Positions 6,553 to 32,558 of a DNA stretch of 32,558 nucleotides are shown here, piece by piece (within the stretch, counting starts at the first letter, position 1; each line of letters begins with the position of its first letter). The notes beneath the pieces were generated by a model that was given only the letters and a program-made list of their open reading frames with translations, was not told where the DNA came from and did no database searches. Origin of the DNA: a virus; the IMG/VR virus record IMGVR_UViG_3300048571_000050, positions 1 to 32,558 of that record; one strand, given 5' to 3'. The position numbers were made by a program, and so were the translations under genes.

Positions 6553-9500
6553 ATGGCGTACATGGTCTGTGATCGGTTCCACGAGGGACCATTTTGTAGC
6601 GATAAAAGATACGAGACGACAGGACCTGAAAAAGAGGACTGTATCACGACTGCCTTCCTATCCTGCGTAAATAATATATGGAAATGCCGCGAAGAAATCG
6701 CAAATGGGAGTTTTCTGTATAGTCTCAATCGGGCTGATGGGCTTGACGTAGTGAGTAAACCCCTCGATGATCTAGAATGTTACGACGACACGTGTCTGGA
6801 AGAGTACCTACAGTGTTGGTGTACAGGTATGGCAGGTCTTACTTGTGTCGTGTGTGGGGATGAGCAAGGCGGTTCGTTCGGTGGTCCTGTAGATGAGCCT
6901 GACGCTCTTGATGACACAAAGAAGAAGAAGAAGAAGCTGAAACAGACTAAAAACGAGATTACTATCTCTGATACCGATGTTATCATACCACTACTCTTCG
7001 GGAGCGTTGTCGTATATGGAAACATCCTTGAAATTTATAAGACAGACCCCACTCACGTTAGTATGTTGATCGCTATTGGAGAAGGGCCTATTGAAGGTAT
7101 AACCCGCGCGTGGATCGGGAATCAGTTGGTCATAGATAACACCTCTTCGGGCCTCACGAGAAGTGCCGCTGCGAAGAAAGAAAAATTGAACATAAAGATA
7201 TTCAAAGGAGGCCCTAACCAGAAGGTAGAAAATAGAGGTCGCTTTGGTGAAGATGTTGCTATGCGAGGCATAGCTTACATGAGAGTGGAGAACTATCCGC
7301 TACTTGGTACGCAAGGTAGAATACCAGAAATTCGTGTGGAAATCGCCTCCAAAGTTTCCAAAGCAATATCTACCTACTACCAGAGCACACATTCTTCGGC
7401 AGACCTTTGGTATGATCTTCCTGGTGGGTACTTATTCTCATACTCTGGACCAACCGTTCGTATTAGTGACTCCTCGTTTACGAGCTTGACTACGTTCAAC
7501 TCAGACGCAAACATCACTCGCTTTAATGTGACCAAGGACTACAATGACATCATCCTACAGACCGCGACCAACAAACTTCATTTTATTTCGGGAGTAGACA
7601 AAACAGACGTTCAAACGGTCACTGCTCCATTAGCCTATAGCGCCGTATTCGGTGGAAGGGTGCGTACCAGTGATCCAGGGCTTACGCGATATATCGTTGG
7701 CGTAAATGGCGCTACCGTTGACTTCTACGAATCACGCAAACCTAACTATACTACACTAACACTGAGTGGAAGTTTTACGCATCCAGAGGCGATTCATACT
7801 TTCATACTTGCGGAATTCTCTAGCTCCAGCTATGAACGTGACACTCTGGGTTTTGCTTTTAGTAACAACAATACAGCTCCTGGGTTCCTTAGAGTTTCCA
7901 GATCACGACTCTACAGCCCGTTCTCGAAGCAAGATTTAGGACTGGGAACTCCTGATGAATTCAATGTACCTCTTCGAGGTATCCTTCAGCGAGTTGTACA
8001 CATACCACAGGAAAACGCTTTCCTTATCTATAGTCTAGATGGCCCGGAGTACGTTGTGACAAAGATTGGACACTCCGATCCTACCGTGAAGATATATGAA
8101 GTACCTGTCCCTGAAATTCCGCAAAGTTCAGGGAGACAAGAAGTCACGCCCGTGGGTGAGACCTACAGTTTTATAAAAGGTGGTAAGGTCTACACTACAC
8201 AACTATCGAGTGGGGTTACCTACGTTGAATACGATCTAGTGGAAAATGGCGCTACTCTTGAGTCTTCTGGTGGATTCTTTGATGGCCTAACTAATTCTGT
8301 CTTCTACCTTGATGTTATGGGCAAAATATCCAAAATTCTACCCGATAGATTCAGCGCGGCACCTGTTAGTCTGAAAAACGTCGTTGATAGTATACTTGAA
8401 AGAGCGTTTCTCCCTCCAGAGTTGTTCGATACGTCGGGACTTTCCGGGGTTACCCTGGATGGGTATCGTATAGACGGACAACTTACCGCTGAAGCTTGCC
8501 TATCCGAGCTTTCTCGGTTCTATCATCTGAATGTGGTAGAATCCTCGAAGGGTATAACTATAAGGCCACGAAGTTTATCTCCTGTAAGTACAGTGGATGA
8601 ACCATCATTCAGAATATCCGGTAACTACGGTAAACTCCTACAAGAGCAAGAGTTGGCTGAATTCGTCTCTATAACGTACTTCGATAGGAATCGTGAATTC
8701 TCTACGATGACACAAACTGTAACGAAGGACCTTATCAACGGCAAAGAAGTAACAGATAGTATAAAAGGCGGAGAGTCCTATGAAATCAATCTTTACACAA
8801 CAGCGAGCGTCGTTCGCTTGTCAGCGGAAATGCGCCTTCTGAAGAACAACGAGAAACCCCTAGGTGGTGTTCTCGTGTTTGGTCCAAGATATCTGGCGAT
8901 TGAACCTGGAGACTTCATTACCGGAAGTCGTGAACAACATTACTGTTACAAAGCTTATGTAGACGTTGATTTTTCTATGCGATTCGATCTATCTAAAGAT
9001 GATCGAAGTAAATACGAGGAAAGCCCTGCACTATCAGGCGTCATATATAACCCCTTGGTCGCGTCTATATCTACCCCCGGCGGCGTGAAGAACTACCCAG
9101 TTTCTCTTCCCTTAATACCGGCACGGTACAAAGACCCAAGAGTGATCCATTATACGGGACAGGTTAGTCCACACTACTCCTACGAGAGACAGCTAAGTCT
9201 AACCTTACTGCCTTCAGGGCAGACACGCAGAGTAAGCGCCGAACCGACAAGTGAGACTCAACATGGCGTCCTGGAAAGTTATTCAGGGATCACACGCATC
9301 AATGAGTTCAGTTATGATGAACTGAATACCTTCGTCGTCAGATTCGCCAAGCCTGTAGTTGGCCTTACAGTAGCAAGCAGGGAGGAATTAAACGCTTCTC
9401 TAACCAGGAATCTTCTGTTTATAGGTACGGAGCTTGTCCAGTTTACATCGTTCAGTATTGGCGGTGACACCAGGACTGTAACCTTCTCAGGATTATATCG

Positions 9501-10188
9501 TGGTAGGATGGGTACAGTGTACGAAACGGAGAGACACTTTGTCCAGGAACCTGTTTATCTGTATGAATCCTCTGCTCTGAGTATGTCGGAGATTGGCGCA
9601 CCATCAGAACAATACGGTAACGCCGACCTAATTCTACCCTCCTTGTTGGACAACAGTATCCGACGTAGGGCCTCTACGCATATCAAGCCACTAGGCACGC
9701 CTGACTGGCTCAACACTACACTATCTGCACGTAATCGATGGGGAGCTTTCGCCTTAAGAGGTATCGACTTTGATATACTCAGAAATAGGGTCTACGATCA
9801 AGAGTTGTTCAACGGTATACCCGGTCAACTCCTATCCTCGGTTGCGCGTCTTCCGCGCTTTTTCTCACTAAAAGCACCCTATAATGCAGCGCTGTTTCAA
9901 GCGGCGCTCCTAGAAGGTAATTATCTTTTCGGAACTTTGTCCGGTCCCTCACCAGGAGGTTCTCCAAACTCGTATATACATCGTGAACTATTCCAAAGAG
10001 AGCGTGATCCTTCCTCTTTCACCGTTTACTATCGTAGAGAAGACATGGTAGGAGATGGTCTCGGAGAAAACAGTGAAATATATTTTGCAACTTACAGTGA
10101 TAAAATAGAAAACGCCAGAGGATACACTCTGGAGGCTAAAGTCAATCGTGGCTTTAATATACCTACTAAACTCAAGTGGAATCCTTAA
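6553..10188 (+). CDS. Tail hub / tip attachment protein, gpJ and GTA-g15-like, paralog 1
   Basis: This 1211-residue protein is the first of three consecutive paralogs. Order of parts: a Cys-rich N-terminus (11 Cys within residues 6-101, ending CWC and CVVC), a lysine run near 123, then the hub segment PLLFGSVVVYGN (about 150) and AIGEGPIEGI (about 175). A beta-strand-rich, propeller-like insertion spans about 276-596. Next come DTSGLSGVTLDGYR (about 625), which marks the domain shared with GTA g15 proteins, and LLFIGTELVQF with LYRGRMGT (about 953-985), the conserved C-terminal hub module. In phages such proteins form the trimeric tip that contacts the receptor and opens the tube. AAGGA at 6537-6541 precedes the ATG; the gene follows the tape measure stop by 14 bases. 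Confidence 0.8.
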   Translation: MAYMVCDRFHEGPFCSDKRYETTGPEKEDCITTAFLSCVNNIWKCREEIANGSFLYSLNRADGLDVVSKPLDDLECYDDTCLEEYLQCWCTGMAGLTCVVCGDEQGGSFGGPVDEPDALDDTKKKKKKLKQTKNEITISDTDVIIPLLFGSVVVYGNILEIYKTDPTHVSMLIAIGEGPIEGITRAWIGNQLVIDNTSSGLTRSAAAKKEKLNIKIFKGGPNQKVENRGRFGEDVAMRGIAYMRVENYPLLGTQGRIPEIRVEIASKVSKAISTYYQSTHSSADLWYDLPGGYLFSYSGPTVRISDSSFTSLTTFNSDANITRFNVTKDYNDIILQTATNKLHFISGVDKTDVQTVTAPLAYSAVFGGRVRTSDPGLTRYIVGVNGATVDFYESRKPNYTTLTLSGSFTHPEAIHTFILAEFSSSSYERDTLGFAFSNNNTAPGFLRVSRSRLYSPFSKQDLGLGTPDEFNVPLRGILQRVVHIPQENAFLIYSLDGPEYVVTKIGHSDPTVKIYEVPVPEIPQSSGRQEVTPVGETYSFIKGGKVYTTQLSSGVTYVEYDLVENGATLESSGGFFDGLTNSVFYLDVMGKISKILPDRFSAAPVSLKNVVDSILERAFLPPELFDTSGLSGVTLDGYRIDGQLTAEACLSELSRFYHLNVVESSKGITIRPRSLSPVSTVDEPSFRISGNYGKLLQEQELAEFVSITYFDRNREFSTMTQTVTKDLINGKEVTDSIKGGESYEINLYTTASVVRLSAEMRLLKNNEKPLGGVLVFGPRYLAIEPGDFITGSREQHYCYKAYVDVDFSMRFDLSKDDRSKYEESPALSGVIYNPLVASISTPGGVKNYPVSLPLIPARYKDPRVIHYTGQVSPHYSYERQLSLTLLPSGQTRRVSAEPTSETQHGVLESYSGITRINEFSYDELNTFVVRFAKPVVGLTVASREELNASLTRNLLFIGTELVQFTSFSIGGDTRTVTFSGLYRGRMGTVYETERHFVQEPVYLYESSALSMSEIGAPSEQYGNADLILPSLLDNSIRRRASTHIKPLGTPDWLNTTLSARNRWGAFALRGIDFDILRNRVYDQELFNGIPGQLLSSVARLPRFFSLKAPYNAALFQAALLEGNYLFGTLSGPSPGGSPNSYIHRELFQRERDPSSFTVYYRREDMVGDGLGENSEIYFATYSDKIENARGYTLEAKVNRGFNIPTKLKWNP

Positions 10189-13100
10189 TGGCACAGGATT
10201 GTAAACCAGAACAAAGAAACAACTGTGAGAAAGTGGGCGTAGGTCCTAACTGTTCTCGCGACGAAAAAGCGGGCCCAAAACAAAAGACTCAATGCCTTGA
10301 TGAGGCTAAGGAGGCGTGTGAGGAAAAGCTAAAAGACTGTATCAAGAAGTGTAAAGATGAGGACGAAGAGAATTCACCGAAAGTTACAGGGTACAGCGGT
10401 TTCAAGGACGCAGACACAAGCGATGGCAACGCCTTTCTTCTGAATCTGTATGTAGGCTCAGCAGGCAATCTACTACGAGAGAATGGTGTTGCGCAATCTG
10501 CGGCGCAGTATGCTCATGGGGACAACTTTACGGGCGCACCGGGGGCAGACCTCTCTATAAGAGACAAGATGACACTTGAGTGTCAATGTACGCAGGACTG
10601 CTATTCGCAGGCAATATCTGACTGTCAAACTGTCCAGTGCTACTGCGGCAGCTTCCGCTGTGAAGGTCCAGATCAAACACGGAACGCAGATGGTTCGGGG
10701 GGAGGAAAAACACCCGGTGACAACGGTGAAAATTCCTTCACGCAGCGACAAGAGAAGAACGAACTAACTGAGGTCACGTTTAACACCTTATCAAAGTACG
10801 ACGATCCTATAGAAATCGTAATCGGAAGAGCTTTTCTCTCAGGTAATGTTATCTGGATGAGCCCTCCGAGAAGTGTCGCCACGCAAGAGACAACAACGTC
10901 AACAGACATAAAAACACGAACTGTGACCAATAAAGTTACAACCACGGTGAAAACAGTTATAGATATCCAGATCGCACTTTGTGCGGGCGAAGTCAGCGCT
11001 ATAAAAAGCGTATTTGTGGACCTTAAAGTTCTACCCTACGCCGACATTTTATTTAGCAAAGGAACCTCTCGTCAGAAGGTAAGCTCACTAGTATCTTCAA
11101 ATATCGGTTTCGGGAGAGTCCCTGCCAATAGGGATATAGCTATTTATGAGATTAGAGGTGCGGACATAAGCGGCTTCAGAAACTTCCCCGAGTTTAGTTT
11201 CGAAGTCACTACAGATGTCAAGAATATAGTGTCCGAAAACACTGCTACAAGTCCAGCGATATCTGGCGTATCCACTAGTGATCTATGGACTGTGGACCCA
11301 CTATCGAGAAGGATGTTTACTTATAGCGGCTCTAACCTCTTCTGTATAGACACGTCAAATATGCAAACTGTATGGACAAGAACTGTTCCAGGTGTTAGGG
11401 AAGTTACACAAAAAGGCAACGCTATCGTCCATGATAGTTCTTCGTTCCGAATCATGGATACTTCACTATCTTCTTTTCAGAGTAATCCCTTGGTTAGTTC
11501 CCAAACAGGGACAGCTTTACTACACGTTGTCGATCAAAATCTGTCAGGTGGAGAATACTTGTACTATGAAAATGGTACAACGGGATATCTACAGCAAGTA
11601 GATGACGTTTACTTATCATTCCCTTCGGACACCGTGGCTACCCAGAGCTTCAATTTAGTAGGCAGCACTCCTTTTGACCTACTTCTCACAGCTAACATCG
11701 CTAGGTCTATAAATCATCCAAGACATCGAAGCTTCTTCCGGTTTGGCGTAGAAGGATCGAGCATAGTCATTCGAGAGTTCCGAATGTTTGGCCAAGCAGC
11801 GGATAACCTAATAGAGGATGGGCTCTTCTATACTTATACTCTTCCATTCTCTACTCTAGGTCTGGTCAATATTCTCAATATAGAATCGGGATTCTTTGAT
11901 GAGTCCGCGGGTTTGTTCTGTCTGTTCGTGTCTACCGATATAGGCTCAAAGGCTCTTGGCTGGAGTCCGTATTCAGGTCTGATCTGGAAGAGAAATATCA
12001 CAACAGCTCCTAAAGGAGGGAAGTACGCCAGTAGTTACGGCGTGTCGGGTAGTTATTCTTTCCTCTCAGGTTCATCTCTAAACGTAATGGATACTACTAC
12101 AGGTGTCGTCGTCTCTACTCCAGCGACATTTTCAAACGTTAGTGGTAAACAGTTTTACGACGCTGCCAGAGATGAAATCTTGTATACTTCCGGAAGCACC
12201 ATAACAAAGTTCGAAAAAGATAATATCACCTACTATCCAGGAAGCATTTCATCGGGCCTAGAGGCTTTGTTACAGCGTGTAGGTTTATCTCCTGGGGATT
12301 ATGATATCATTGGTCTCTCCGGTGTCATCAAAGGATATAGGAGCGGCAATCAGACCTTTGTATCAGATATACTGGCATCTATCGCTAGCCTGTATAGATT
12401 CAACTTCTTTGCAAGCGATAAACTCACCATAACTCCGATGGATTCTGTCGCAACCATTGCTGTGTCATTGAATCACGTAGAAAGCGTCCCCACCAGAAAA
12501 CGTAGTCCAAAAGAAGCCTCAAAAAGTAAGAATGTAAGAGTCAGCTATTTGTCGGATGTACTTAAAAATCGAGGGACGCCTTCCAAGCAACATTTCCGGG
12601 TGGACACGGGAGGACACACTTCTTCCACACAAGAACAAGAGTCATCTTTTGACTGGACAGCCCTCGAAAGCGCCAGTTACATGAAGCACTTAGCGGAAAT
12701 TCTTTCTACGACCTCCACGGATCAGAATCGAGAAGTGTCTATGATGCTCGCGCCGCGGTATTTGCGTATAACCCCCTCAGACTTTGTCCAACTGGGAACA
12801 GAGTTCTTTGCTGTAAATAAAGTCTCCGTGGGTGCGGACTACAGTGTATCCGTAGAAGGTCTGTTTGATAATCCCACGAAGTATCAAGACACAGTCCTTC
12901 TGTCTCCCCCCATAATACTAGATAATAACACCGCAGATTTCTCTGACGAAAATATCTTAGCCCCGGCGTTTACGATGGTAGGTCGTCCTAATCCTCCTAC
13001 GCACCTTATTTCTAGTAATCTGTTCTTGGGGCTAAGCGGGAATCTACAGTCTGTGGAATCTGTACAGAAAGGCAACGTGGCTCTCACGGAGGACGCTGCT

Positions 13101-14114
13101 TTTGGGAGTATAGTTCCAAGACTCTACACCCGAGAAGTTCTTTGGGGTCGTCTTATTGTGCCTCCTGTATTCACAACAGGAGAACGCTTCAGAACCTTTC
13201 CCGAGCAGAACCTGATGATTGAGTTCGCATCTAATGACATGGTTACAGCGGTATTATCCAAACAGTCGCGCGTCAATGAATATCCCGATTATCGTACTAT
13301 CTCCCCCAACGTCTATAACATGTTGCTCGTTAATAAGGAGCTAATCCAGTACGCCGAATCATTTGCCGTTTCTGGTTTCCCTAGAAGGGTTGAATTTAGA
13401 AACTTACTACGCGGACGAGAGAATACGGATGACAGGATGTCGCATACCGTTGGTGAACCTTGTCTCATCTATGACGGTGTGTCTACTCAGCAACATGAGG
13501 TATTACCTGAGAGAACAGCCTTTTCTATAAAAACCCTTATGCAAAAAGATGGAGAGGATGACAGATATCAATATGACGTGTCGGCGGATGAGGAAGCGCT
13601 TTATCCTGTAGATTTTGGTTACCTGATGCGTTATGATGTTACTGCAACAGATTCAGGTGTTGCAGGCTCCCTAGCTCATCCAGCCAACCCGCACCTATTC
13701 ATTATGTTTCGGATGAGACAGAACAGGGATATTGGTTTTACAGACAACAACGTTTCCCTACAGCCTAGCGGTGCGTCTATGCCCTTCCAATTATATCTGA
13801 TAAGAGGTATATATGATGAGGTTTTGTTCGACACAGAGCGTGACTCAACCGATACCTCTTACGTTTTCTATAGGAAGGATGTTCGTAACGCCGGGTTGAG
13901 TGCTTTTAGCTCAAAGAACTACGACTTAACAACGCGGCAAGAGAGAGGTGTAGTCCTCTATGGTGTAGGTCATCAAGGTTACGACGCAGAAAACGATACA
14001 TTAACGGCGGTAGCAATAGTGAAAAATGAATTTGGTGAGAGTCGCGCGGTATTCTCATGGCCTCCAGGGTTTTCTAGCCTTGATCGCCCAAGACGGGGCC
14101 AAAGGGTAAAATAA
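10188..14114 (+). CDS. Tail hub / tip attachment protein, gpJ and GTA-g15-like, paralog 2
   Basis: The 1308-residue product shares the plan of the gene before it. I chose the ATG at 10188, which overlaps the previous stop as TAATG; an in-frame GTG at 10176 would lie within the upstream coding end. The N-terminus has seven Cys in helical spacing (residues 5-55, with C-x7-C-x6-C-x3-C), then CQCTQDC and CYCGSFRC near 130-157. Hub strands follow: VIGRAFLSGNVIW (about 209) and LCAGEV (about 263). Residues about 362-677 look like PQQ/YVTN-type propeller blades (FTYSGSNLFCIDTSNMQTVW). GLSGVIKGYR (about 705) and LLVNKELIQY with LLRGRENT (about 1045) complete the shared hub core. It is probably one chain of the tail tip. 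Confidence 0.8.
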   Translation: MAQDCKPEQRNNCEKVGVGPNCSRDEKAGPKQKTQCLDEAKEACEEKLKDCIKKCKDEDEENSPKVTGYSGFKDADTSDGNAFLLNLYVGSAGNLLRENGVAQSAAQYAHGDNFTGAPGADLSIRDKMTLECQCTQDCYSQAISDCQTVQCYCGSFRCEGPDQTRNADGSGGGKTPGDNGENSFTQRQEKNELTEVTFNTLSKYDDPIEIVIGRAFLSGNVIWMSPPRSVATQETTTSTDIKTRTVTNKVTTTVKTVIDIQIALCAGEVSAIKSVFVDLKVLPYADILFSKGTSRQKVSSLVSSNIGFGRVPANRDIAIYEIRGADISGFRNFPEFSFEVTTDVKNIVSENTATSPAISGVSTSDLWTVDPLSRRMFTYSGSNLFCIDTSNMQTVWTRTVPGVREVTQKGNAIVHDSSSFRIMDTSLSSFQSNPLVSSQTGTALLHVVDQNLSGGEYLYYENGTTGYLQQVDDVYLSFPSDTVATQSFNLVGSTPFDLLLTANIARSINHPRHRSFFRFGVEGSSIVIREFRMFGQAADNLIEDGLFYTYTLPFSTLGLVNILNIESGFFDESAGLFCLFVSTDIGSKALGWSPYSGLIWKRNITTAPKGGKYASSYGVSGSYSFLSGSSLNVMDTTTGVVVSTPATFSNVSGKQFYDAARDEILYTSGSTITKFEKDNITYYPGSISSGLEALLQRVGLSPGDYDIIGLSGVIKGYRSGNQTFVSDILASIASLYRFNFFASDKLTITPMDSVATIAVSLNHVESVPTRKRSPKEASKSKNVRVSYLSDVLKNRGTPSKQHFRVDTGGHTSSTQEQESSFDWTALESASYMKHLAEILSTTSTDQNREVSMMLAPRYLRITPSDFVQLGTEFFAVNKVSVGADYSVSVEGLFDNPTKYQDTVLLSPPIILDNNTADFSDENILAPAFTMVGRPNPPTHLISSNLFLGLSGNLQSVESVQKGNVALTEDAAFGSIVPRLYTREVLWGRLIVPPVFTTGERFRTFPEQNLMIEFASNDMVTAVLSKQSRVNEYPDYRTISPNVYNMLLVNKELIQYAESFAVSGFPRRVEFRNLLRGRENTDDRMSHTVGEPCLIYDGVSTQQHEVLPERTAFSIKTLMQKDGEDDRYQYDVSADEEALYPVDFGYLMRYDVTATDSGVAGSLAHPANPHLFIMFRMRQNRDIGFTDNNVSLQPSGASMPFQLYLIRGIYDEVLFDTERDSTDTSYVFYRKDVRNAGLSAFSSKNYDLTTRQERGVVLYGVGHQGYDAENDTLTAVAIVKNEFGESRAVFSWPPGFSSLDRPRRGQRVK

Positions 14115-17100
14115 GTGGCAGATTGGAAACAAAACAAATACGGGCTCTCTACAGAACTCTACATCCCTCCGGGATCGATTTCGGCTATCCCAGCTCCAGG
14201 TACAAAGGGAGAAAGCTCTAACGTACTAACATGGACTCGTGATCCTGAGGAGATTGTAAAAGACCTTTTCGCTGGTTCGGGGGGGGCAAAGAGCGGCAAG
14301 AAAAAAGAAGAATGCGAGGATATGAAGGGGAAGATTAGGGGCTCGGGTCCAGATTGCTCTCCGTTGAAAGAAGAGGGGGATCACGATAGTGCCCTCTGTT
14401 TTTACAATGAAACACTTGAGTGTATCCAATCGTGGAGAGCTTCTGTGTACGCTTCTAGTCTTGATTATATTGATACGATGCTGACAAACAAAGATCAAGC
14501 AAACGAGTCCTTCAAACATGGATTTTCACAGTTGTTCCCTTCTGATATGAGTCCGGAGAGTCTGGATGAGTCTCGTGAGACGTTCGATGACGCTGGTGAG
14601 GAATACAAAGCCTGTTTAGAGGAGATTGAGGACCTATGTGAGTGTGATCGTTGTGTGTGGGGCGGAGGAGACGGTGATGATGAGAAAGAAGACACAGACA
14701 CAGGCGCGCCTAACCCAACAGCAAATGATACACCTAAGAAAGACGATACTTCTGTCACGTCCGACTTTCGTGAAATACGGACCATATCTGGATTCGACGT
14801 TATACCGCGAGTGTGGGGTCGTTACGTCTTAGGAGGTAACATCGTCTGGACTGGGGGGGTCAGGACCGTCGTAAATAACACCTTTAAACCCCCTAGAGAT
14901 GGTGAAGGTCGTCCAATTACGGTCTTCGATACTACACTGGACTTTTCTTTGGGTTTGTGTGCGGGCGAAGTAGAGAGTCTACTGCGAGTATGGTTTGACG
15001 ACATTAAAATTGTTGATCGTCTTTTGAACCCTATAACCGATAGAAATTATACGAGTGATCTATTCTCGGCCCCCCTTGCCACGAATCCCCACGACTTAAC
15101 GGTGTTGTCGAAGAGGCAACCTAAACTCAAACTTGAGTTAGGAACAAAGAGTCAAAAAGTAAATAAAGATCACGCTGAAAAGGACGGTTTTGGTCGTTCT
15201 CCGGCTTATAGAGAACTATCTTTCTTACATTTCAAAGATGTCAATCTCGCGGTTTTTCCAAACGATTTCCCGAAAATACGTGTTGACATCGCGACTAACA
15301 CCGAACCTGTGACGGATTATGTAGAGACTGCACCTGAACCAGAGGTATATGGTCTATCCATGAACGTAGACCCGCGAAGTGGCTCTTTGACGGTACAGAC
15401 CGAGGATGACGAATATGTTATCTATGATTGGGACACGATGGAGGAGCGTTTTCGCGGTGTGTGCTCCTTCGACGTATACCCGATGATCCTAGAATCTGGA
15501 TACCAAGCCTATTTTGATTATGACTTTAATCAAGTGAGACTCGTAGATGTCGCTTATCCTCCCGGTAGAGTTCTCGTAACTGAGTACGCTCCTGTTACTC
15601 CTCTTGTCACGAATAATGACGTTCTCCTAGCTCGCACAATCAAGTATACAGATTCCAAGAGTAGAATCCCCTACGACGTGATCTATTGCACACAATTTGA
15701 CAACAATATCGGAGCGTTTAGGGTAGATTACACAAACAATAAGATACTAGAAACATCTTCTTTATTTAGCTCGCCGCAGATAAATTCTACGGTAGAAACC
15801 GTACAAGCTGACTCCTTGGCTATTTTGTCGGGAATCACGACATACTTCCAAATGTCTGTCCCTAATGTATCTGGGACACACATAAAGATAACAAAAAACG
15901 CTGTTATGGGGATCAACTACATCTTCAAGGATCAGCTACTGCCATCAGACGTTACCTCTTCAACCATCCCTGCAAGTGTTTGGGGAGGTGGTGTATCTAA
16001 CGTAAATATACGTCAAGCCATCTATTGTCATCATGACAACACGATACTACTCTTCGTGTCCCAGGATACCGTTTATACATGTATAAAGATCGACGCGATG
16101 ACTCTATCGGTAATCTGGTCGAGCACAGGTCTTCCTGCATTCTTTACGTGGGCCACTACTTCTAATCCTCTAAGTAGAGGACCTATTGGCGTTCTTAAAT
16201 TCGTTACTAGCAATGGTACGGTTCAGAGATTAAATCTGGATACAGGAGAACTTTCCACCGAGGTTGCTTTAGTTCCATCAGGGTATCCTGCGTACATCGT
16301 AGGCTCATCTCAGCACTATGACGCAAGAACCGACTCCCTGTTCTACTTCAGTTTGAGCGGTCTAAATACCAAGATTGTGCGTCTGTTCTTTGACCGGTTA
16401 AGTCCTGTTGATGTTCCTATCAGTACGATAGTGAATGATCTAGCAAGAATCACCGAACAATCTATAAATACCTCCGGTGTGACGGGTGTCACCGTCAAGG
16501 GATACGCGGTGCAATCCACCGCTTCCATAAAATCTTTCTTTACAGACTTCGCTGACTTCTTCCATCTCATTCTAACGGATAATGGTACATCCCTTACAAT
16601 GAACAGTAAGGCTCTACTGTCCGCTCCTGTAGTTTTATCTCCTACAGAAGACCTCCTAGAGAACAGCTCTGAGGGTGGGATGACAACAAGTAGCAAGGTC
16701 CCAGATTCTTTGTCGGTGTCTTTTGTCACGATAGATGAAGCTGGTTTGAATGAGAGCTTACAAATTGTATCAAGCAGAGAGGTGGAGAGTGACTACTCGG
16801 TATTCTCATCTAACGATATAAAGTACACGCTGGGGGTCTATGAAGAACCTCTAGTTATGAGACAGTACGCAGAAAAAGCACTGAGGTCTGCTCGCTCAGA
16901 ATCTAGACAGACGCGTTTTGGTCTTATGCCAAAGTTGATGCGTCTAGGGGTGCAGGATTCAGTGAGTCTACTGGGAGACGTGTTCCGTATCAACAGGCAT
17001 GTGCAAGACCCTCTGGAGAAAGTAATTCTAGACGGAAAGACTTTCAGCACAGAGGATTATTCTTTTGATGTAGCGCTCTCCACGTCAGCACTAAACACTA

Positions 17101-18377
17101 CGAACTTCCGCCCTCGTGTTGTGAAGGCTCCTTTTGGTAAGCCTGTGATTCTCTTCGCTAACGCCATAACGAACGAGGATTCTCTACGCTCTGTTGGTGG
17201 AGAGCAAGTCGTATACACTTTGATTGAGAGTAAGGTCCACGTTCTAGATGGTTATCGTGTAAAGATGCGAACCTTATCCCATACACAGTACTACACAGAT
17301 GAGTTCAATGTCGCTTCTAGCGTTCGTACTAAAGAAGTTGATCCATCCCCTGCGTATATATCTAAGAAGCACACAGTTTCTGCTCATGTTGGTCTTCTGA
17401 CAGTTATCCCTCAAACAAGAGAATTGCGTCCTGATTGGGGTAGAGTTCGTGAAGAGGATTTCCTTGAGATTACTTTCGACAAGGTAGAAACGCTCGATCA
17501 ACTTGCTCTACTTACGTTCCCAGACGATAAGTCGGAGATACCTGCTGACAGTCGGAAAAATCTGTTGATAGTCGGTCAAGAACTTATACAGTTCGGGGCT
17601 TATCAGATAATGGACGCTCCGAATAAAGTTGTGCGATTCTCTCACCTATTCCGTGGTATACGCGGTACCGAGTCATATCTGAATCACGTTGCTGGAGGTA
17701 CATTCCTCGTTGATGATGGTGATGGCGGATTTAATGAGATTACTCGCCCTGGTGATAGAGTATATCTATACACAGAAGACACCATACTTCCGATGGGTGT
17801 TGACGCTTACTTCACTAAGTTCAATACATCCACTCGTGTCTGGATCGATGCAGACGTACCCGCGGGATATTCCCCAGTAGATTACATCCAGAAGGCTTCC
17901 GCAGGGTCCGCGCGCGCATGGGCACCTAGCCACGCGAAGATATATTCTCTAGCAGGCGATCAGACTCACCTAAGAGTCAGTTTCGTCAAACGAGACCCCC
18001 TTGTGTTTTCCGAAATGGATAATCTGGGCCCGTCAAACGGGGTCTATGGACCTACCGTATTTATGATGAAACACTTCCAGACTGCGCAAGGAATCCTATA
18101 CAACCCAGAGAATAATTACGAGCTTTTCTCCACTACAGTCCCTCAGATATCCGAGATAACCCTCCCCCTAGACAAGCAACGAACCGATATCGTAGACGGG
18201 GAGGTTATCGCCTCCTATGATATTACACATACTGCGACAAATATGACGCGGTGGGTAACCCTTCTTGTCTCCCAGATATCAAGAGACGGGCAGAATGAAC
18301 CTATTATGGGGCACCCTGCTATTGTATATATTCACGCTGGTAGCGGCGTTCAGTTTAGTTACCCGCCGGTACCTTGA
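14115..18377 (+). CDS. Tail hub / tip attachment protein, gpJ and GTA-g15-like, paralog 3
   Basis: At 1420 residues this is the longest of the three. Translation starts at the GTG that directly follows the previous TAA, with AAAGGG about 10 bases upstream. It has eight Cys in the N-terminal 180 residues (CECDRC near 174) and an acidic, disordered linker. Hub segments are VWGRYVLGGNIVW (about 233) and LCAGEV (about 280). The propeller-like region is about 410-762. VTGVTVKGYAV (about 788) and LLIVGQELIQF with LFRGIRGTES (about 1148) are the conserved core. The C-terminal 250 residues differ from the siblings and may carry specificity. Its end lies beside promoter P2, so the three hub genes probably close one transcription unit. 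Confidence 0.8.
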   Translation: MADWKQNKYGLSTELYIPPGSISAIPAPGTKGESSNVLTWTRDPEEIVKDLFAGSGGAKSGKKKEECEDMKGKIRGSGPDCSPLKEEGDHDSALCFYNETLECIQSWRASVYASSLDYIDTMLTNKDQANESFKHGFSQLFPSDMSPESLDESRETFDDAGEEYKACLEEIEDLCECDRCVWGGGDGDDEKEDTDTGAPNPTANDTPKKDDTSVTSDFREIRTISGFDVIPRVWGRYVLGGNIVWTGGVRTVVNNTFKPPRDGEGRPITVFDTTLDFSLGLCAGEVESLLRVWFDDIKIVDRLLNPITDRNYTSDLFSAPLATNPHDLTVLSKRQPKLKLELGTKSQKVNKDHAEKDGFGRSPAYRELSFLHFKDVNLAVFPNDFPKIRVDIATNTEPVTDYVETAPEPEVYGLSMNVDPRSGSLTVQTEDDEYVIYDWDTMEERFRGVCSFDVYPMILESGYQAYFDYDFNQVRLVDVAYPPGRVLVTEYAPVTPLVTNNDVLLARTIKYTDSKSRIPYDVIYCTQFDNNIGAFRVDYTNNKILETSSLFSSPQINSTVETVQADSLAILSGITTYFQMSVPNVSGTHIKITKNAVMGINYIFKDQLLPSDVTSSTIPASVWGGGVSNVNIRQAIYCHHDNTILLFVSQDTVYTCIKIDAMTLSVIWSSTGLPAFFTWATTSNPLSRGPIGVLKFVTSNGTVQRLNLDTGELSTEVALVPSGYPAYIVGSSQHYDARTDSLFYFSLSGLNTKIVRLFFDRLSPVDVPISTIVNDLARITEQSINTSGVTGVTVKGYAVQSTASIKSFFTDFADFFHLILTDNGTSLTMNSKALLSAPVVLSPTEDLLENSSEGGMTTSSKVPDSLSVSFVTIDEAGLNESLQIVSSREVESDYSVFSSNDIKYTLGVYEEPLVMRQYAEKALRSARSESRQTRFGLMPKLMRLGVQDSVSLLGDVFRINRHVQDPLEKVILDGKTFSTEDYSFDVALSTSALNTTNFRPRVVKAPFGKPVILFANAITNEDSLRSVGGEQVVYTLIESKVHVLDGYRVKMRTLSHTQYYTDEFNVASSVRTKEVDPSPAYISKKHTVSAHVGLLTVIPQTRELRPDWGRVREEDFLEITFDKVETLDQLALLTFPDDKSEIPADSRKNLLIVGQELIQFGAYQIMDAPNKVVRFSHLFRGIRGTESYLNHVAGGTFLVDDGDGGFNEITRPGDRVYLYTEDTILPMGVDAYFTKFNTSTRVWIDADVPAGYSPVDYIQKASAGSARAWAPSHAKIYSLAGDQTHLRVSFVKRDPLVFSEMDNLGPSNGVYGPTVFMMKHFQTAQGILYNPENNYELFSTTVPQISEITLPLDKQRTDIVDGEVIASYDITHTATNMTRWVTLLVSQISRDGQNEPIMGHPAIVYIHAGSGVQFSYPPVP

Positions 18378-27366: not shown

Positions 27367-29175
27367 GTGGCATTTATTTACAAGATGGGGGTAGCGGTTG
27401 TCGTTAGAGACAGACCGGGTATCCACGTCTTTAAACAATCTGCCACCGTACTGCACGGCCCTGCTGTCGGAGAGTACCTAACTCACTTCATGAGTAATGT
27501 AGTTCTAAAAAGAACTGTGGGTTTAAACGTCTCTGATTTTGTAGCTGTTGTCGTCTGTTCCCCTACGGTTGCTGCGCCCGGTGTACGGTCACATAAATAC
27601 AACACCTATGGTGTCTTGTCTCCTAACACGTTAGTTTACCAATACAATAATTATAGCGTGCTTGAGCCTATAGAGATACCATCCAAGATAAAGAAGTTGT
27701 CAGGGTATGGTGCCTTAAAAGCCTCAACGAGAGTTTTCGGTCAAGCCGGTTATTCCGCACTGAAACCACCACCACCTGTTCGTGTAACAAGTAGTCGCGC
27801 ATATGCTATTGTGGCTCCCACGGTAACCGCTGGTAAGTTATCCTCTTTCGTAGCTCTTAAGCCACCGCCACCTATCACGGTTGATAAGGTTACAGGATAC
27901 GCCGTTGGTGCTTCCGCGCTTAGTGTGATGCGCTTGTCAGGATACGTCGTTGCGGACGTTCCTCCGGGGCAAATCGCGCGCAAATATGGCGGGTATGTCG
28001 CTCTGGTTCAGGCGGCGTCAGTCTACCAAAACGCGTCTTACGCTGTTCTAGATGTACCTCCTCCCTCTATAATCTATACGCTCAAGGGATACGGTGTTCT
28101 CTTCGACAAAGCTTCTAATGTTTATCAGAATACCCTTTATGGTGTTTTGGACGCGCCTCCTCCAGAAGTCGTGCGAAAATACAACGCATATTCTGTTCTG
28201 GTCCGAGCCGCCAGTGTGTATTCTAAAGTAGGATATGCTGTTCTAGATGCGCCTCCGCCTTGTAAGGTTTACAAACTATCTAGTTACACCATTCTTATGC
28301 ACGCAGTATCTGTTCCAGGGAACAGAGGATACGCCGCACTGAAACCCCCACCACCAATTACCGTTTATGGCGTTGGCGGGTATTCTGTATTAAATCAAGC
28401 CGCAAATGTGTACGTTAAAAGTAGTTATGCCGCGCTAATCCCTCCTCCTCCGATATTCGTCCTAAAGTGGGCGTGTTACGCTGTGTTCTGCCAAGGAGTA
28501 AATACTTCTAAGAACTTAGGTTACGCTGCGTTGAAACCCCCACCACCGATTTTGTCTAACAAACTTATCGGTTACACCGCCCTCGCACCTACCGCTAACG
28601 TGTACTCATTCGTACATTATCGTGTCCTAACACCGCCGCCGCCTATCTTCGTGAGAGCGTTTGTTGGATATGCTGTACTGAACCAGATAGCGGAAGTACA
28701 AGCCTACAACGCCTATGGGGTCATGAAGGCTCCACCACCTATAAAAGTTTTCGACTGCTCAGCGTATGCTTGTTTGGTACAAAGCGCGGAAGTAAAGAAC
28801 ACTACCTCCTATGTCGTACTAGGTTCGCCCCCACCCCTGTATCTCTCTGGGATGAAGGGTTACGGCGTCCTAACGCCAGCTACGCGTGTCTTGATCACAA
28901 GCGCTTGCGTGGTCATGGAACTTCCTAGAACATTACACTATAAGACCTCCGCAGGTGTCGTATTGATGCATAAACCAGTAGCGACCATCGCTTATGAATA
29001 CAACGGGTATGTGGCAATAGATTCACCACCAATAAGTGTTGATAAGATGACCCTATACACGCCTCTCGTTCCACTGTCCGGTATAGGCCCCAGACAGAGG
29101 AAGACGGTATCCTATGTAGTCGGCGCGCCTACGATCAACCCAAGCAAGACCTCTGTTGTTAATACGAGCCAGTGA
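27367..29175 (+). CDS. 32-residue Pro-rich repeat protein (probable fibre shaft)
   Basis: After a non-repeat N-terminus of about 70 residues, nearly all of the 602 residues is a tandem repeat of 32 residues, made of two unequal halves. A 17-residue half reads like YAALKPPPPITVYGVGG and a 15-residue half like YSVLNQAANVYVKSS. About 14 full units can be followed, most regular between residues 130 and 500. Each turn has an aromatic (mostly Tyr) at its start and PPP or PPPP in the long half. The repeat is unlike collagen or known fibre repeats I can name. A beta-solenoid or beta-prism shaft with polyproline edges is plausible. GTG at 27367 follows TAAGG at 27353-27357; no ATG is better placed. 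Confidence 0.75.
   Translation: MAFIYKMGVAVVVRDRPGIHVFKQSATVLHGPAVGEYLTHFMSNVVLKRTVGLNVSDFVAVVVCSPTVAAPGVRSHKYNTYGVLSPNTLVYQYNNYSVLEPIEIPSKIKKLSGYGALKASTRVFGQAGYSALKPPPPVRVTSSRAYAIVAPTVTAGKLSSFVALKPPPPITVDKVTGYAVGASALSVMRLSGYVVADVPPGQIARKYGGYVALVQAASVYQNASYAVLDVPPPSIIYTLKGYGVLFDKASNVYQNTLYGVLDAPPPEVVRKYNAYSVLVRAASVYSKVGYAVLDAPPPCKVYKLSSYTILMHAVSVPGNRGYAALKPPPPITVYGVGGYSVLNQAANVYVKSSYAALIPPPPIFVLKWACYAVFCQGVNTSKNLGYAALKPPPPILSNKLIGYTALAPTANVYSFVHYRVLTPPPPIFVRAFVGYAVLNQIAEVQAYNAYGVMKAPPPIKVFDCSAYACLVQSAEVKNTTSYVVLGSPPPLYLSGMKGYGVLTPATRVLITSACVVMELPRTLHYKTSAGVVLMHKPVATIAYEYNGYVAIDSPPISVDKMTLYTPLVPLSGIGPRQRKTVSYVVGAPTINPSKTSVVNTSQ
27770..28840 (+). repeat. 96-bp in-frame repeats encoding the PPPP motif
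   Basis: CCACC-type runs coding three or four prolines recur about every 96 bases, for example near 27766, 27862, 28345, 28441, 28537 and 28633. Codons differ between units (CCACCACCA, CCGCCGCC, CCTCCTCC), so the repeat is held at protein rather than DNA level. Confidence 0.8.
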
Positions 29176-29837
29176 TGAAACTTACAGATGACATTCTAGA
29201 CGAAGCGCTACTATCCATGACGGATCGGGTTAGCGGAAAGATGCAACCAAAATATATTTGTCTTTATTCTTATAGTGGCGATCTGCTGGATTTCGAGGAT
29301 CATATTTTCAACGTGTTGGATAAAGAGTCCGTTCATATTTCTGTAGACACAGACGGTACAATTACCCAATACGCGCCCTTTACCTCTAAGACGTGGCACG
29401 CCGGGGCGGCCTCCTGGCAAGGGTACCACGGCCTCAACGGCTTTGCGATTGGGGTCTACGTCATTGTGGACGAAAAGGGGGGATATTCGGCAAATACTTT
29501 AGACGCGCTTGTCCGTCTCCTGGTCGATACCTACAAGATACGCGACATAGTGTCCATCAAGCGACCCTTTAGCGGTATAGTTGACATAGAGCCTTACAAA
29601 CCTTATGTTGAGTATGGTAACGCAGATAGTATGGGTAGATACGTAGTAATCTCTGGTAGCGAAGTCTTTTCTGGACCTTCTACTAGTTTCACGAGTATCA
29701 CTGTAGTGGAACCTGGAGAGGCTGTGAAGCTTCTCAAAACCTCTAGAGATCAAGAGTGGGCGCTGATTCTGTTTGAACAAAGAGATAACGTATCAAAGCA
29801 AGGTTGGCTACACGAGTCCATGCTCCGGAGACTCTGA
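29175..29837 (+). CDS. Amidase_2-fold protein with C-terminal SH3 domain, active site degenerate
   Basis: Residues about 25-145 follow the N-acetylmuramoyl-L-alanine amidase (AmpD/T7 lysozyme) fold: DTDGTITQYAPFTSKTWHAG, then WQGYHGLNGFAIGVYVIV and VRLLVDTYKIRDIVSI. Residues about 152-220 (SEVFSGPSTSFTSIT, GEAVKLLKTS, KQGWLHESML) form a bacterial SH3 wall-binding domain. Several expected catalytic positions look changed: the first zinc His appears as Tyr (ICLYSYS), the GIE glutamate as Tyr95, and the GHSDI and K-x-DPG region as SIKRPF...IVDIEP. The ATG at 29175 overlaps the previous stop (TGATG); a GTG three bases earlier is equally possible. It could bind wall without cutting it, or be an unusual endolysin. 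It precedes the membrane proteins, as an endolysin would. Confidence 0.75.
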   Translation: MKLTDDILDEALLSMTDRVSGKMQPKYICLYSYSGDLLDFEDHIFNVLDKESVHISVDTDGTITQYAPFTSKTWHAGAASWQGYHGLNGFAIGVYVIVDEKGGYSANTLDALVRLLVDTYKIRDIVSIKRPFSGIVDIEPYKPYVEYGNADSMGRYVVISGSEVFSGPSTSFTSITVVEPGEAVKLLKTSRDQEWALILFEQRDNVSKQGWLHESMLRRL

Positions 29838-30767: not shown

Positions 30768-30780
30768 AAGCTCTTTCCTC

Positions 30781-30809
30781 TTGATTATTTAGAGGTTAGA
30801 CGCTAAATA
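30781..30809 (+). promoter_or_regulatory. Promoter of the tmRNA gene
   Basis: TTGATT (30781-30786) and TAAATA (30804-30809) are spaced by 17 bases, directly after the last lysis-region gene and just before the first tmRNA segment. A start near 30815-30820 is expected. Confidence 0.55.
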
Positions 30810-30877
30810 TATCCTACTGACGTTGAAGCGCGACTAGTTTGGACAACACTCGGGGGCAGTACCCGACAGGTCCACCA

Positions 30878-30952
30878 AAAGCGTCTACTATGAAACTCTG
30901 AAGGGGCTTCCCGAAGTGTCCCCGAGGAGAATCTCTAGTAGGCGCTTCTGAT
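30878..30952 (+). other. Intervening segment of the permuted tmRNA
   Basis: Between the CCA end and the GGGCCTG strand lie 75 bases that should be removed on maturation. AAGCGTCTACTA (30879-30890) pairs with TAGTAGGCGCTT (30936-30947) over 12 bp with one G-U pair. An inner GGGG/CCCC hairpin sits near 30903-30923. The long stem would stack on the acceptor stem and hold both pieces together for processing. Confidence 0.85.
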
Positions 30953-31036
30953 GGGCCTGAAATAGGATCGATTGACAAATGCGGTCTATGTGGAGTTAGT
31001 GGTGACGTTTCCGATCTTACGGGACAAACTCTAGAT

Positions 31037-31087
31037 GCAAACGAAAACTCGGTTGCGGAAGACTTTGAGTACAGACTTGCTGCCTAA
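31037..31087 (+). other. tmRNA tag reading frame
   Basis: From the resume codon GCA the frame encodes ANENSVAEDFEYRLAA and stops at TAA (31085-31087). The start AN-E-N and end LAA match the general proteolysis tag plan (E. coli ANDENYALAA). At 16 residues it is longer than the E. coli tag. The bases before it (CTAGATGCAAACGAAAAC) match the conserved context around other resume codons. Confidence 0.92.
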
Positions 31088-31209
31088 GCAGTAAGTTCGT
31101 CTTAAACCTTTCTGGGGCTTTCCGGTGCGCCTTATTACCCAAGCACTGGATCAATCACGCGTTTGCTGCTTTCTTGCAAAGTAGCTGGTGGAGGGCTTAA
31201 ACGCCCCTG

Positions 31210-31250
31210 GGCTGTCTAAGTGCTCGGCACGCTTAGACAGCCTCCAATTT
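31210..31250 (+). terminator. Rho-independent terminator after the tmRNA
   Basis: GGCTGTCTAAG (31210-31220) and CTTAGACAGCC (31232-31242) form a perfect 11-bp stem, extended by a short inner TGC/GCA pairing. TCCAATTTT follows. The T-tract is modest, but the stem is very stable, and it closes the tmRNA unit. Confidence 0.8.
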
Positions 31251-31443: not shown

Positions 31444-31519
31444 TGCGGGGTAGGGAAGAGGTCGTCCCGCCTGCCTCATAAGCAGGAGACCGCTGGTTCG
31501 AATCCAGCCCCCGCAACCA
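31444..31519 (+). tRNA. tRNA with CAT anticodon (elongator Met or Ile2)
   Basis: All four arms can be drawn. The acceptor is TGCGGGG/CCCCGCA, the D stem GGGA/TCCC, and the anticodon stem CCTGC/GCAGG with loop CTCATAA (anticodon CAT). The T stem is GCTGG/CCAGC with loop TTCGAAT. Discriminator A is at 31516 and CCA (31517-31519) is encoded. The 1-72 pair is T-A and the anticodon stem lacks the three G-C pairs of initiators, so it is not fMet. With a lysidine-modified C34 it could read AUA as Ile; sequence alone does not decide. Confidence 0.95.
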
Positions 31520-31674: not shown

Positions 31675-31694
31675 CCCCGGCGTTTAGGCCGGGG
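31675..31694. repeat. Subterminal hairpin of the IS left end
   Basis: CCCCGGC (31675-31681) and GCCGGGG (31688-31694) form a 7-bp stem with a 6-base loop. The tnpA stop codon lies in it. A second perfect stem TCGGCCC/GGGCCGA (31707-31723) follows. TnpA enzymes recognise such subterminal hairpins as single-stranded DNA, so the first is the likely transposase-binding end. Confidence 0.6.
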
Positions 31695-32142
31695 ATGTAG
31701 AGGGGATCGGCCCACCGGGCCGACTTTGTTGCTCGATGTACTGCTTGACTACAGATATCGGAGCCCCGCCGACCGACCCTGCAAAATAGCTGGGTGTCCA
31801 CAGAACGCCTCCACTTTTCCTGACAGACCAAAACGTCTTGATCGCCGGAAACTCTTGCTTGAGGCGTCGGCTCGAAACGCCCTTTAGGCTGTTGACCAGC
31901 TCCGAAAGACGCACCTTCGGAGGATAGTTGACCAGCAAGTGAACGTGATCCGCTTCGCCGTTGAATTCTTTTAGGTGAACCTCGAAGTCCTTGCACACCT
32001 CGTTGAAGATGATGCCGAGACGGTCGAGATGCTGGCCAGTGAGAACCTTTCCACGCCGCTTGGTCACAAAGACCAAGTGCGCGTGAAGCATAAAGACTAC
32101 GTGACGACCTGTTCGAATTTCCACGATAGACCAATTTGACAT
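31684..32142 (-). CDS. tnpA: IS200/IS605-family TnpA, HUH Y1 transposase
   Basis: The 152-residue protein cuts and rejoins single-stranded ends of the element by a tyrosine-DNA link. LHAHLVFVTKRR is at residues 19-30, the metal-binding HUH motif (DHVHLLV) has His66 and His68, and PSYFAGSVGG lies at 117-126. The catalytic Tyr135 is in VVKQYIEQQ. Length and motifs are complete, so the gene appears functional. The C-terminus after residue 139 runs into the two end hairpins and is slightly longer than usual. The ATG is at 32142-32140. Confidence 0.93.
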   Translation of the reverse strand: MSNWSIVEIRTGRHVVFMLHAHLVFVTKRRGKVLTGQHLDRLGIIFNEVCKDFEVHLKEFNGEADHVHLLVNYPPKVRLSELVNSLKGVSSRRLKQEFPAIKTFWSVRKSGGVLWTPSYFAGSVGGAPISVVKQYIEQQSRPGGPIPSTSPA

Positions 32143-32170: not shown

Positions 32171-32558
32171 ATGAACTCGACCGAAGACCAAGACAAAACA
32201 TACAAGACTTTCAGCTACCGCGTCAAAGATGCGACCAGCGGAAAGCGCCTTGTCGCGCTTGGCAATGCGGTCAATACAGTTTGGAACCACTGCAACGCCG
32301 CGCAGAAGCACGCGGTCGATAGGAACCAGAAGTGGCCAAGCTACGCCGCTATGCACGCCAGCACTAAAGGCGCTGGCAGGCTGATCGGATTGCCGTCCCA
32401 GGTGGTGCAAGCCGTCTGCAAGGAATATACGATCAAGAGGAAGGCGGCCCACAAGGCCAAGCTCCGCTGGCGCGTCAGTCGCGGATCGAAGCGTTCCCTC
32501 GGCTGGGTACCGTTCACGAACCAGGACATCAACCTTGCAAAGCGTGGCACCGTCGAGC
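32171..32558 (+). CDS. tnpB: TnpB-family RNA-guided nuclease, N-terminal part (cut by window end)
   Basis: An ATG at 32171 opens a frame that stays open to the end of the window (129 residues). TYKTFSYRVKDA, then LVALGNAVNTVWNHCNAAQKH, LPSQVVQAVCKEY and TIKRKAAHKAKLRWR correspond to the wedge and early helical region of TnpB proteins. The RuvC catalytic residues and zinc finger would be encoded beyond the window. TnpB is an RNA-guided nuclease that helps keep the element at its site, using a guide RNA from the right end. Divergent tnpA next to it confirms the family. Whether the gene is intact cannot be seen. Confidence 0.85.
   Translation, partial: MNSTEDQDKTYKTFSYRVKDATSGKRLVALGNAVNTVWNHCNAAQKHAVDRNQKWPSYAAMHASTKGAGRLIGLPSQVVQAVCKEYTIKRKAAHKAKLRWRVSRGSKRSLGWVPFTNQDINLAKRGTVE

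Follow-up and report, generated by a model that had tools for sequence, protein, structure and literature searches.

Identification of a Permuted tmRNA Gene

The tailed-phage gene at 30785-31178 on the + strand of the DNA studied here is a circularly permuted, alpha-type tmRNA gene (ssrA) whose RNA-side elements are intact. The DNA, referred to below as the window, is a stretch of 32,558 nt that makes up a whole IMG/VR virus record. The host of the phage is most likely an alphaproteobacterium.

To the whole 32,558-nt window ARAGORN assigned a single tmRNA, permuted, at 30785-31178 on the + strand and with the tag ANENSVAEDFEYRLAA*. Two Rfam covariance models matched the same region end to end: RF04321 (tmRNA_permuted) at 30816-31087 with 71.2 bits and an E-value of 5.6e-12, and RF01849 (alpha_tmRNA) at 30777-31136 with 67.5 bits and an E-value of 1.4e-16. 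Both scores exceed the gathering cut-offs, which are 47 bits for RF04321 and 50 bits for RF01849. Three independent callers or models concur on a tmRNA, to a degree that chance does not explain. An initial annotation, made from the sequence, had proposed a phage-borne permuted tmRNA, and this proposal is borne out by the permuted ARAGORN call and the two Rfam matches. RF01849 and ARAGORN in permuted mode were among the checks that it had named, and one outcome that it had put forward as refuting, no hit to any tmRNA model, did not occur.

By sequence, ARAGORN and Rfam alike, the 3' acceptor half with the T arm and CCA precedes the 5' acceptor half and the tag. The features of the gene and its flanks are as follows.

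29172-29837, + strand: upstream endolysin, Amidase_2 and SH3 (Pfam, PHROGs)
30812-30821, + strand: 5' strand of P2, in the acceptor piece (pairs with 30995-31005 in co-folds; P2 is also in the RF04321 model)
30850-30866, + strand: T arm (sequence, ARAGORN, Rfam alignments)
30867-30873, + strand: 3' acceptor strand CAGGUCC (sequence, ARAGORN, Rfam alignments)
30874-30877, + strand: A73 (discriminator) and CCA, end of the acceptor piece (sequence, ARAGORN, Rfam alignments)
30878-30952, + strand: spacer of 75 nt, its ends predicted to pair as a long stem joining the two cleavage sites (folding, phage covariation)
30953-30959, + strand: 5' acceptor strand GGGCCUG, start of the coding piece (7 bp with 30867-30873; Rfam)
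within 30953-30972, + strand: D-loop motif GAAAUAGGAUCGA, after the 5' acceptor strand (Rfam)
30995-31005, + strand: 3' strand of P2 (co-fold)
31037-31087, + strand: tag frame ANENSVAEDFEYRLAA, resume codon GCA at 31037 and stop codon TAA at 31085-31087 (ARAGORN; Rfam alignment over UGCAAACGA)
31073-31098, + strand: hairpin around the tag stop codon, bounds approximate (every co-fold containing the region; GCUGC-UAA-GCAGU in the RF01849 alignment)
31209-31250, + strand: terminator-like hairpin (31209-31243) and short U-rich tail (scan, folding)
31444-31519, + strand: downstream tRNA with a CAT anticodon (ARAGORN; Rfam, 66.3 bits; resembles phage tRNAs)

The acceptor helix GGGCCUG/CAGGUCC has 7 bp, and G30955-U30871 corresponds to G3-U70, the alanine identity pair. 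For the ACCA (30874-30877), the 5' acceptor strand (30953-30959) and this helix with its G3-U70 pair, the coordinates of the initial annotation were exact, and the T arm, D-loop motif and tag frame had also been placed correctly, as judged by sequence, Rfam and ARAGORN. When the two presumed pieces are co-folded without constraints, the acceptor, T arm and P2 are predicted to form together for most choices of the ends. At the position before the tag where the pseudoknot PK1 would lie, the co-fold predicts a hairpin. The tag has 16 amino acids, an alanine resume codon, an LAA ending and an intact stop codon.

The gene had also been credited with a promoter and a terminator of its own. The latter agrees with the strong terminator-like hairpin at 31209-31243 (14 pairs, -23 kcal/mol, fold z -5.3), about one such hairpin being expected by chance in the region. 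The promoter was not borne out: the promoter scan detected none adjoining the gene, and a candidate picked by eye, TTGATT-17-TAAATA at 30781-30809, is weak. Transcription from upstream is therefore possible.

Conservation of the Acceptor and Spacer Stems

Pair 4 of the acceptor is C-G in the window. It is G-C in the remaining cleanly parsed genes, phage and cellular alike, whose acceptors read GGGG.../...CUCC; both sides have changed and G3-U70 is kept. The acceptor parser failed or misplaced the helix on some cellular loci and on Lacusarx, RpAliso, Bajun, the long form of Phosso, XM05, L02 and C1, and these were excluded from the pair counts.

The spacer stem of the window (30868-30962) folds at -45 kcal/mol with a z of -5.7. 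Among 14 distinct phage spacers, pairing in the same register was found for 151 of the 168 possible pairs, compared with a mean of 108.7 and a maximum of 135 in 5000 shuffles and with 61-87 when the register was slid by 1-2 bases; these figures come from related sequences that are not independent, leave out records unreadable by the parser, and include IMG/VR loci in which the fetch pattern fixes the first three spacer bases. Many positions of the stem show several pair types among the 14 spacers. A stem bringing the two cleavage sites together is thus supported by compensatory changes across phages and by predicted folding, and the phage set offers covariation evidence for such a precursor stem.

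Possible Function of the Phage tmRNA

The gene is probably a working phage ssrA that takes part in host-dependent trans-translation and keeps ribosomes usable during mRNA cleavage. Related alphaproteobacterial phages retain a permuted tmRNA gene, which we counted in favor of a working gene; counted against it were a score that is low for the family (67.5 bits vs. 157-318 in most cellular alpha genes) and the failure to detect a promoter belonging to the gene.

Beyond the observed anatomy, conserved pairing, viral context and absence of SmpB in related phages, we propose the following course of transcription, processing, charging, tagging and benefit. A precursor RNA ending near 31245 would be transcribed either together with the lysis genes or later than they are. 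Host tRNA-processing enzymes would make two cuts, one behind the CCA (30877) and one in front of the 5' acceptor G (30953), and so set the spacer hairpin free. The acceptor and P2 helices would keep the acceptor and coding pieces together, and host AlaRS would charge the RNA via G3-U70. No SmpB was found in the window or in 12 tmRNA-bearing phage records, and therefore host SmpB would serve to deliver the RNA to ribosomes stalled on broken mRNA. Addition of ANENSVAEDFEYRLAA would then free the ribosome and lead to degradation of the product. The likeliest role would be ordinary trans-translation that adds to the host tmRNA or competes with it, and on the simplest reading the phage would gain extra rescue capacity under heavy mRNA cleavage, with ribosomes that stay usable. 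The phage set sharpens the question of what phages gain from a tmRNA of their own when they bring no SmpB.

The main rival to simple rescue, which we regard as unlikely, is that trans-translation is intact and that its main effect is competition with the host tmRNA, by which phage products would escape host tagging or receive a differently handled tag. The authors of the Lacusarx study proposed that its tmRNA counteracts host tagging (PMC5648845). The tag in the window is in line with this idea in being longer than cellular ones (16 vs. 10-14 amino acids) and in starting with ANEN rather than the usual ANDN. However, the tag keeps its LAA end, which ClpX recognises, and proteins that carry it would still be expected to undergo degradation. 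A stronger form, in which the tmRNA is a counter-host device and not a rescue aid, its 16-amino-acid tag being handled differently by host adaptors and proteases, appears rather improbable. If it were true, the position next to the lysis genes would link the tmRNA to a late change in how proteins are turned over.

It is very improbable that the gene was captured from a host and is now a decaying relic, as the low covariance-model scores and the lack of a clear promoter might suggest. The acceptor is fully paired and carries a two-sided change, the CCA and tag frame are intact and the spacer stem is conserved, all of which decay at such divergence would have broken.

Genomic Context

The tmRNA gene is viral, as it lies among tail and lysis genes and its score is far lower than those of most alpha-type ssrA genes from cells. 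The genes of the window, the record of which is classed as viral, include those for a tape measure, a DUF2460 protein, a baseplate-hub-type protein and an endolysin (Pfam, PHROGs). As the initial annotation had stated, a lysis gene lies upstream (amidase/SH3, 29172-29837) and a tRNA(CAT) downstream (31444-31519); between the two, beside the tmRNA, are small ORFs of no known family. The tRNA(CAT) is up to 87% identical to phage tRNAs over its full length among the matches listed. Its acceptor UGCGGGG/CCCCGCA with U1-A72 is reminiscent of the alphaproteobacterial initiator tRNA, and there are similar tRNAs in RcXuper and RpoS-V10, while Vibrio phages carry related ones.

Among 299 Pseudomonadota genomes drawn for comparison, RF01849 gave 85 hits at 157-318 bits, two more at 91 and 115 bits and a further group, mostly shorter, at about 36-60 bits; these lower-scoring hits may be other permuted types. 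Two of the cellular genomes (L161 5021-5423 and L162 5021-5410) have a second permuted tmRNA with the tag ANDNVALNEVRLAA at 163-166 bits, the main one scoring 307-309. The end of this tag resembles the EVRLAA of Lacusarx, and the surroundings in L161 look chromosomal. The range for phage genes is 57-113 bits and includes the window gene at 67.5.

The contig stops within an IS200/IS605-type element, 1.4 kb past the tmRNA gene. The gene for an IS200-type Y1 transposase lies at 31684-32142 on the - strand, and a divergent frame at 32171-32558 on the + strand, which extends past the contig end, appears to be its partner in the element. The transposase was tried for host assignment and rejected as uninformative, its best matches being from Gammaproteobacteria and Actinomycetes.

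The least probable reading is that the window runs from a prophage into the chromosome and that the gene is the host ssrA at the junction, as might be suggested by the short right flank with its insertion element and by the use of ssrA as an integration site for islands (PMC11915505), but the score lies within the phage range and far below the 85 cellular hits, no integrase was seen, the neighbouring tRNA is similar to those of phages, IMG/VR classes the record as viral and related lytic-type phages carry the gene. The initial annotation had named host chromosome at a prophage junction as a refutation; the score and the phage neighbours speak against it, the right flank being short.

Elsewhere in the window, the genes for three large tail proteins (1211, 1312 and 1420 amino acids) follow one another at 6553-18377. 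Stretches of them are 23-32% identical to each other, which suggests from sequence a repeatedly duplicated tail hub or fibre gene.

Occurrence among Phages

The view that a permuted tmRNA is uncommon in a tailed phage did not hold. In a survey of 18,146 phage genomes, 133 unique tmRNA structures were recorded from 402 phages; 53 of the structures were two-piece, and 50 of these came from marine or aquatic samples (PMC9004378). The ssrA of Lacusarx has been annotated since 2017, and the RF01849 cut-off was reached in 12 of the 17 phage records that we searched, a set partly picked through tmRNA matches. The endolysins of DSS3_MAL1, RpoS-V10, DSS3P8, MD18 and RpAliso align with that of the window over most of the length, and all of these phages have a permuted tmRNA. 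RcXuper, RcRudolph, Phosso, Bajun, XM05 and L02 are also above the cut-off, and Erythrobacter, Brevundimonas and Sinorhizobium phages are among the carriers of permuted tmRNAs. The gene is not present in every relative, as no match was obtained for Citromicrobium phage RXM, RcZahn, OLIVR5 and Mwe-JY26. Several of the phage genes are unannotated in their records. The window gene is therefore a divergent example of a type of phage permuted tmRNA that is already known.

A strict sequence pattern alone retrieved 17 more IMG/VR contigs, presumed viral, all above the RF04321 cut-off. In viral_contigs, the window-specific acceptor/spacer pattern for a near-identical gene gave zero matches, no close relatives of the endolysin or the 1211-amino-acid tail protein were found, and the DUF2460 relatives were fragments without a tmRNA.

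Some further loci were observed. Unusually long tags, VNASNDNDVVVSTMTSVKLAA and VAANDNAPFAVREAIAA, were found in the ARAGORN tmRNA calls of Caulobacter phage C1 (L201) and Brevundimonas phage Bajun (L180), respectively, the C1 call falling below the RF01849 cut-off. In Sinorhizobium jumbo phage Phosso (L193), which has no ARAGORN call, the permuted tmRNA match (108 bits) extends across 690 bases; about 410 bases separate its CCA from the acceptor, far more than in other phage spacers. Acinetobacter phages BS46 and Phab24 were rejected as tmRNA carriers, the evidence being a blastn match to the T arm with no tmRNA model or ARAGORN call. The stretch concerned (L004 3938-4030) is an unannotated tRNA-like sequence after tRNA-Arg, with a T arm 90% identical to that of the window.

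Comparison with Known Systems

Among cultured phages, the Sphingobium phage Lacusarx (KY629563) is the best match to the DUF2460 tail protein of the window (47%). Its annotated ssrA (LAV_00111) is alpha-type and was shown by ARAGORN to be permuted, with a spacer of 74 nt vs. 75 in the window and a tag, ANDNDVVTAEVRLAA, that ends in RLAA as does the window tag. The acceptors differ (GGGGGUG/CACCUCC vs. GGGCCUG/CAGGUCC), and the Lacusarx gene is located at 74.8 kb of a 130-kb genome, far from the endolysin at 29.7 kb, whereas the window gene follows the lysis genes.

The roseophage-type siphoviruses of about 150 kb (DSS3P8, RpoS-V10, DSS3_MAL1, MD18, RpAliso and RcXuper) share the gene form, G3-U70 and the D-loop motif with the window, and their endolysins, RcXuper excepted, are related to that of the window. 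Those that the parser read (V10, RcXuper, DSS3P8, DSS3_MAL1 and MD18) have the spacer stem in the register of the window. However, their spacers are of 98-111 nt and their tags of 14 amino acids, compared with 75 nt and 16 amino acids, their gene is in or near a tRNA-rich region, and the window gene, at 67.5 bits vs. 83-113, has diverged further. Ruegeria phage V10 also has, in a tRNA-rich region and about 170 bases upstream of its permuted tmRNA match, a match to GOLLD RNA (L002 5341-5774) that scores 151.4 bits against a cut-off of 150. Large siphophages of alphaproteobacteria thus carry the permuted form repeatedly, in many cases without annotation, and the window adds a divergent example.

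Methylophage Melnitz and the pelagimyophages likewise carry a phage-borne permuted tmRNA of alphaproteobacterial type, but they are myophages with a glutamine riboswitch linked to the tmRNA (PMC9004378); such a riboswitch was looked for in the window and none was found. Cellular alphaproteobacterial ssrA (RF01849) shares with the window gene its order of parts, the acceptor with G3-U70, the T arm, the D-loop motif and the start and end of the tag. Of the cellular genes that were parsed, nearly all have a spacer of 22-57 nt and one has 75 nt, vs. 50-111 nt in phages, and the tag has 10-14 amino acids in the cellular set vs. 16 in the window. The tag in the window starts with ANEN and cellular ones usually with ANDN, while the AN.N start and the LAA end are common to both.
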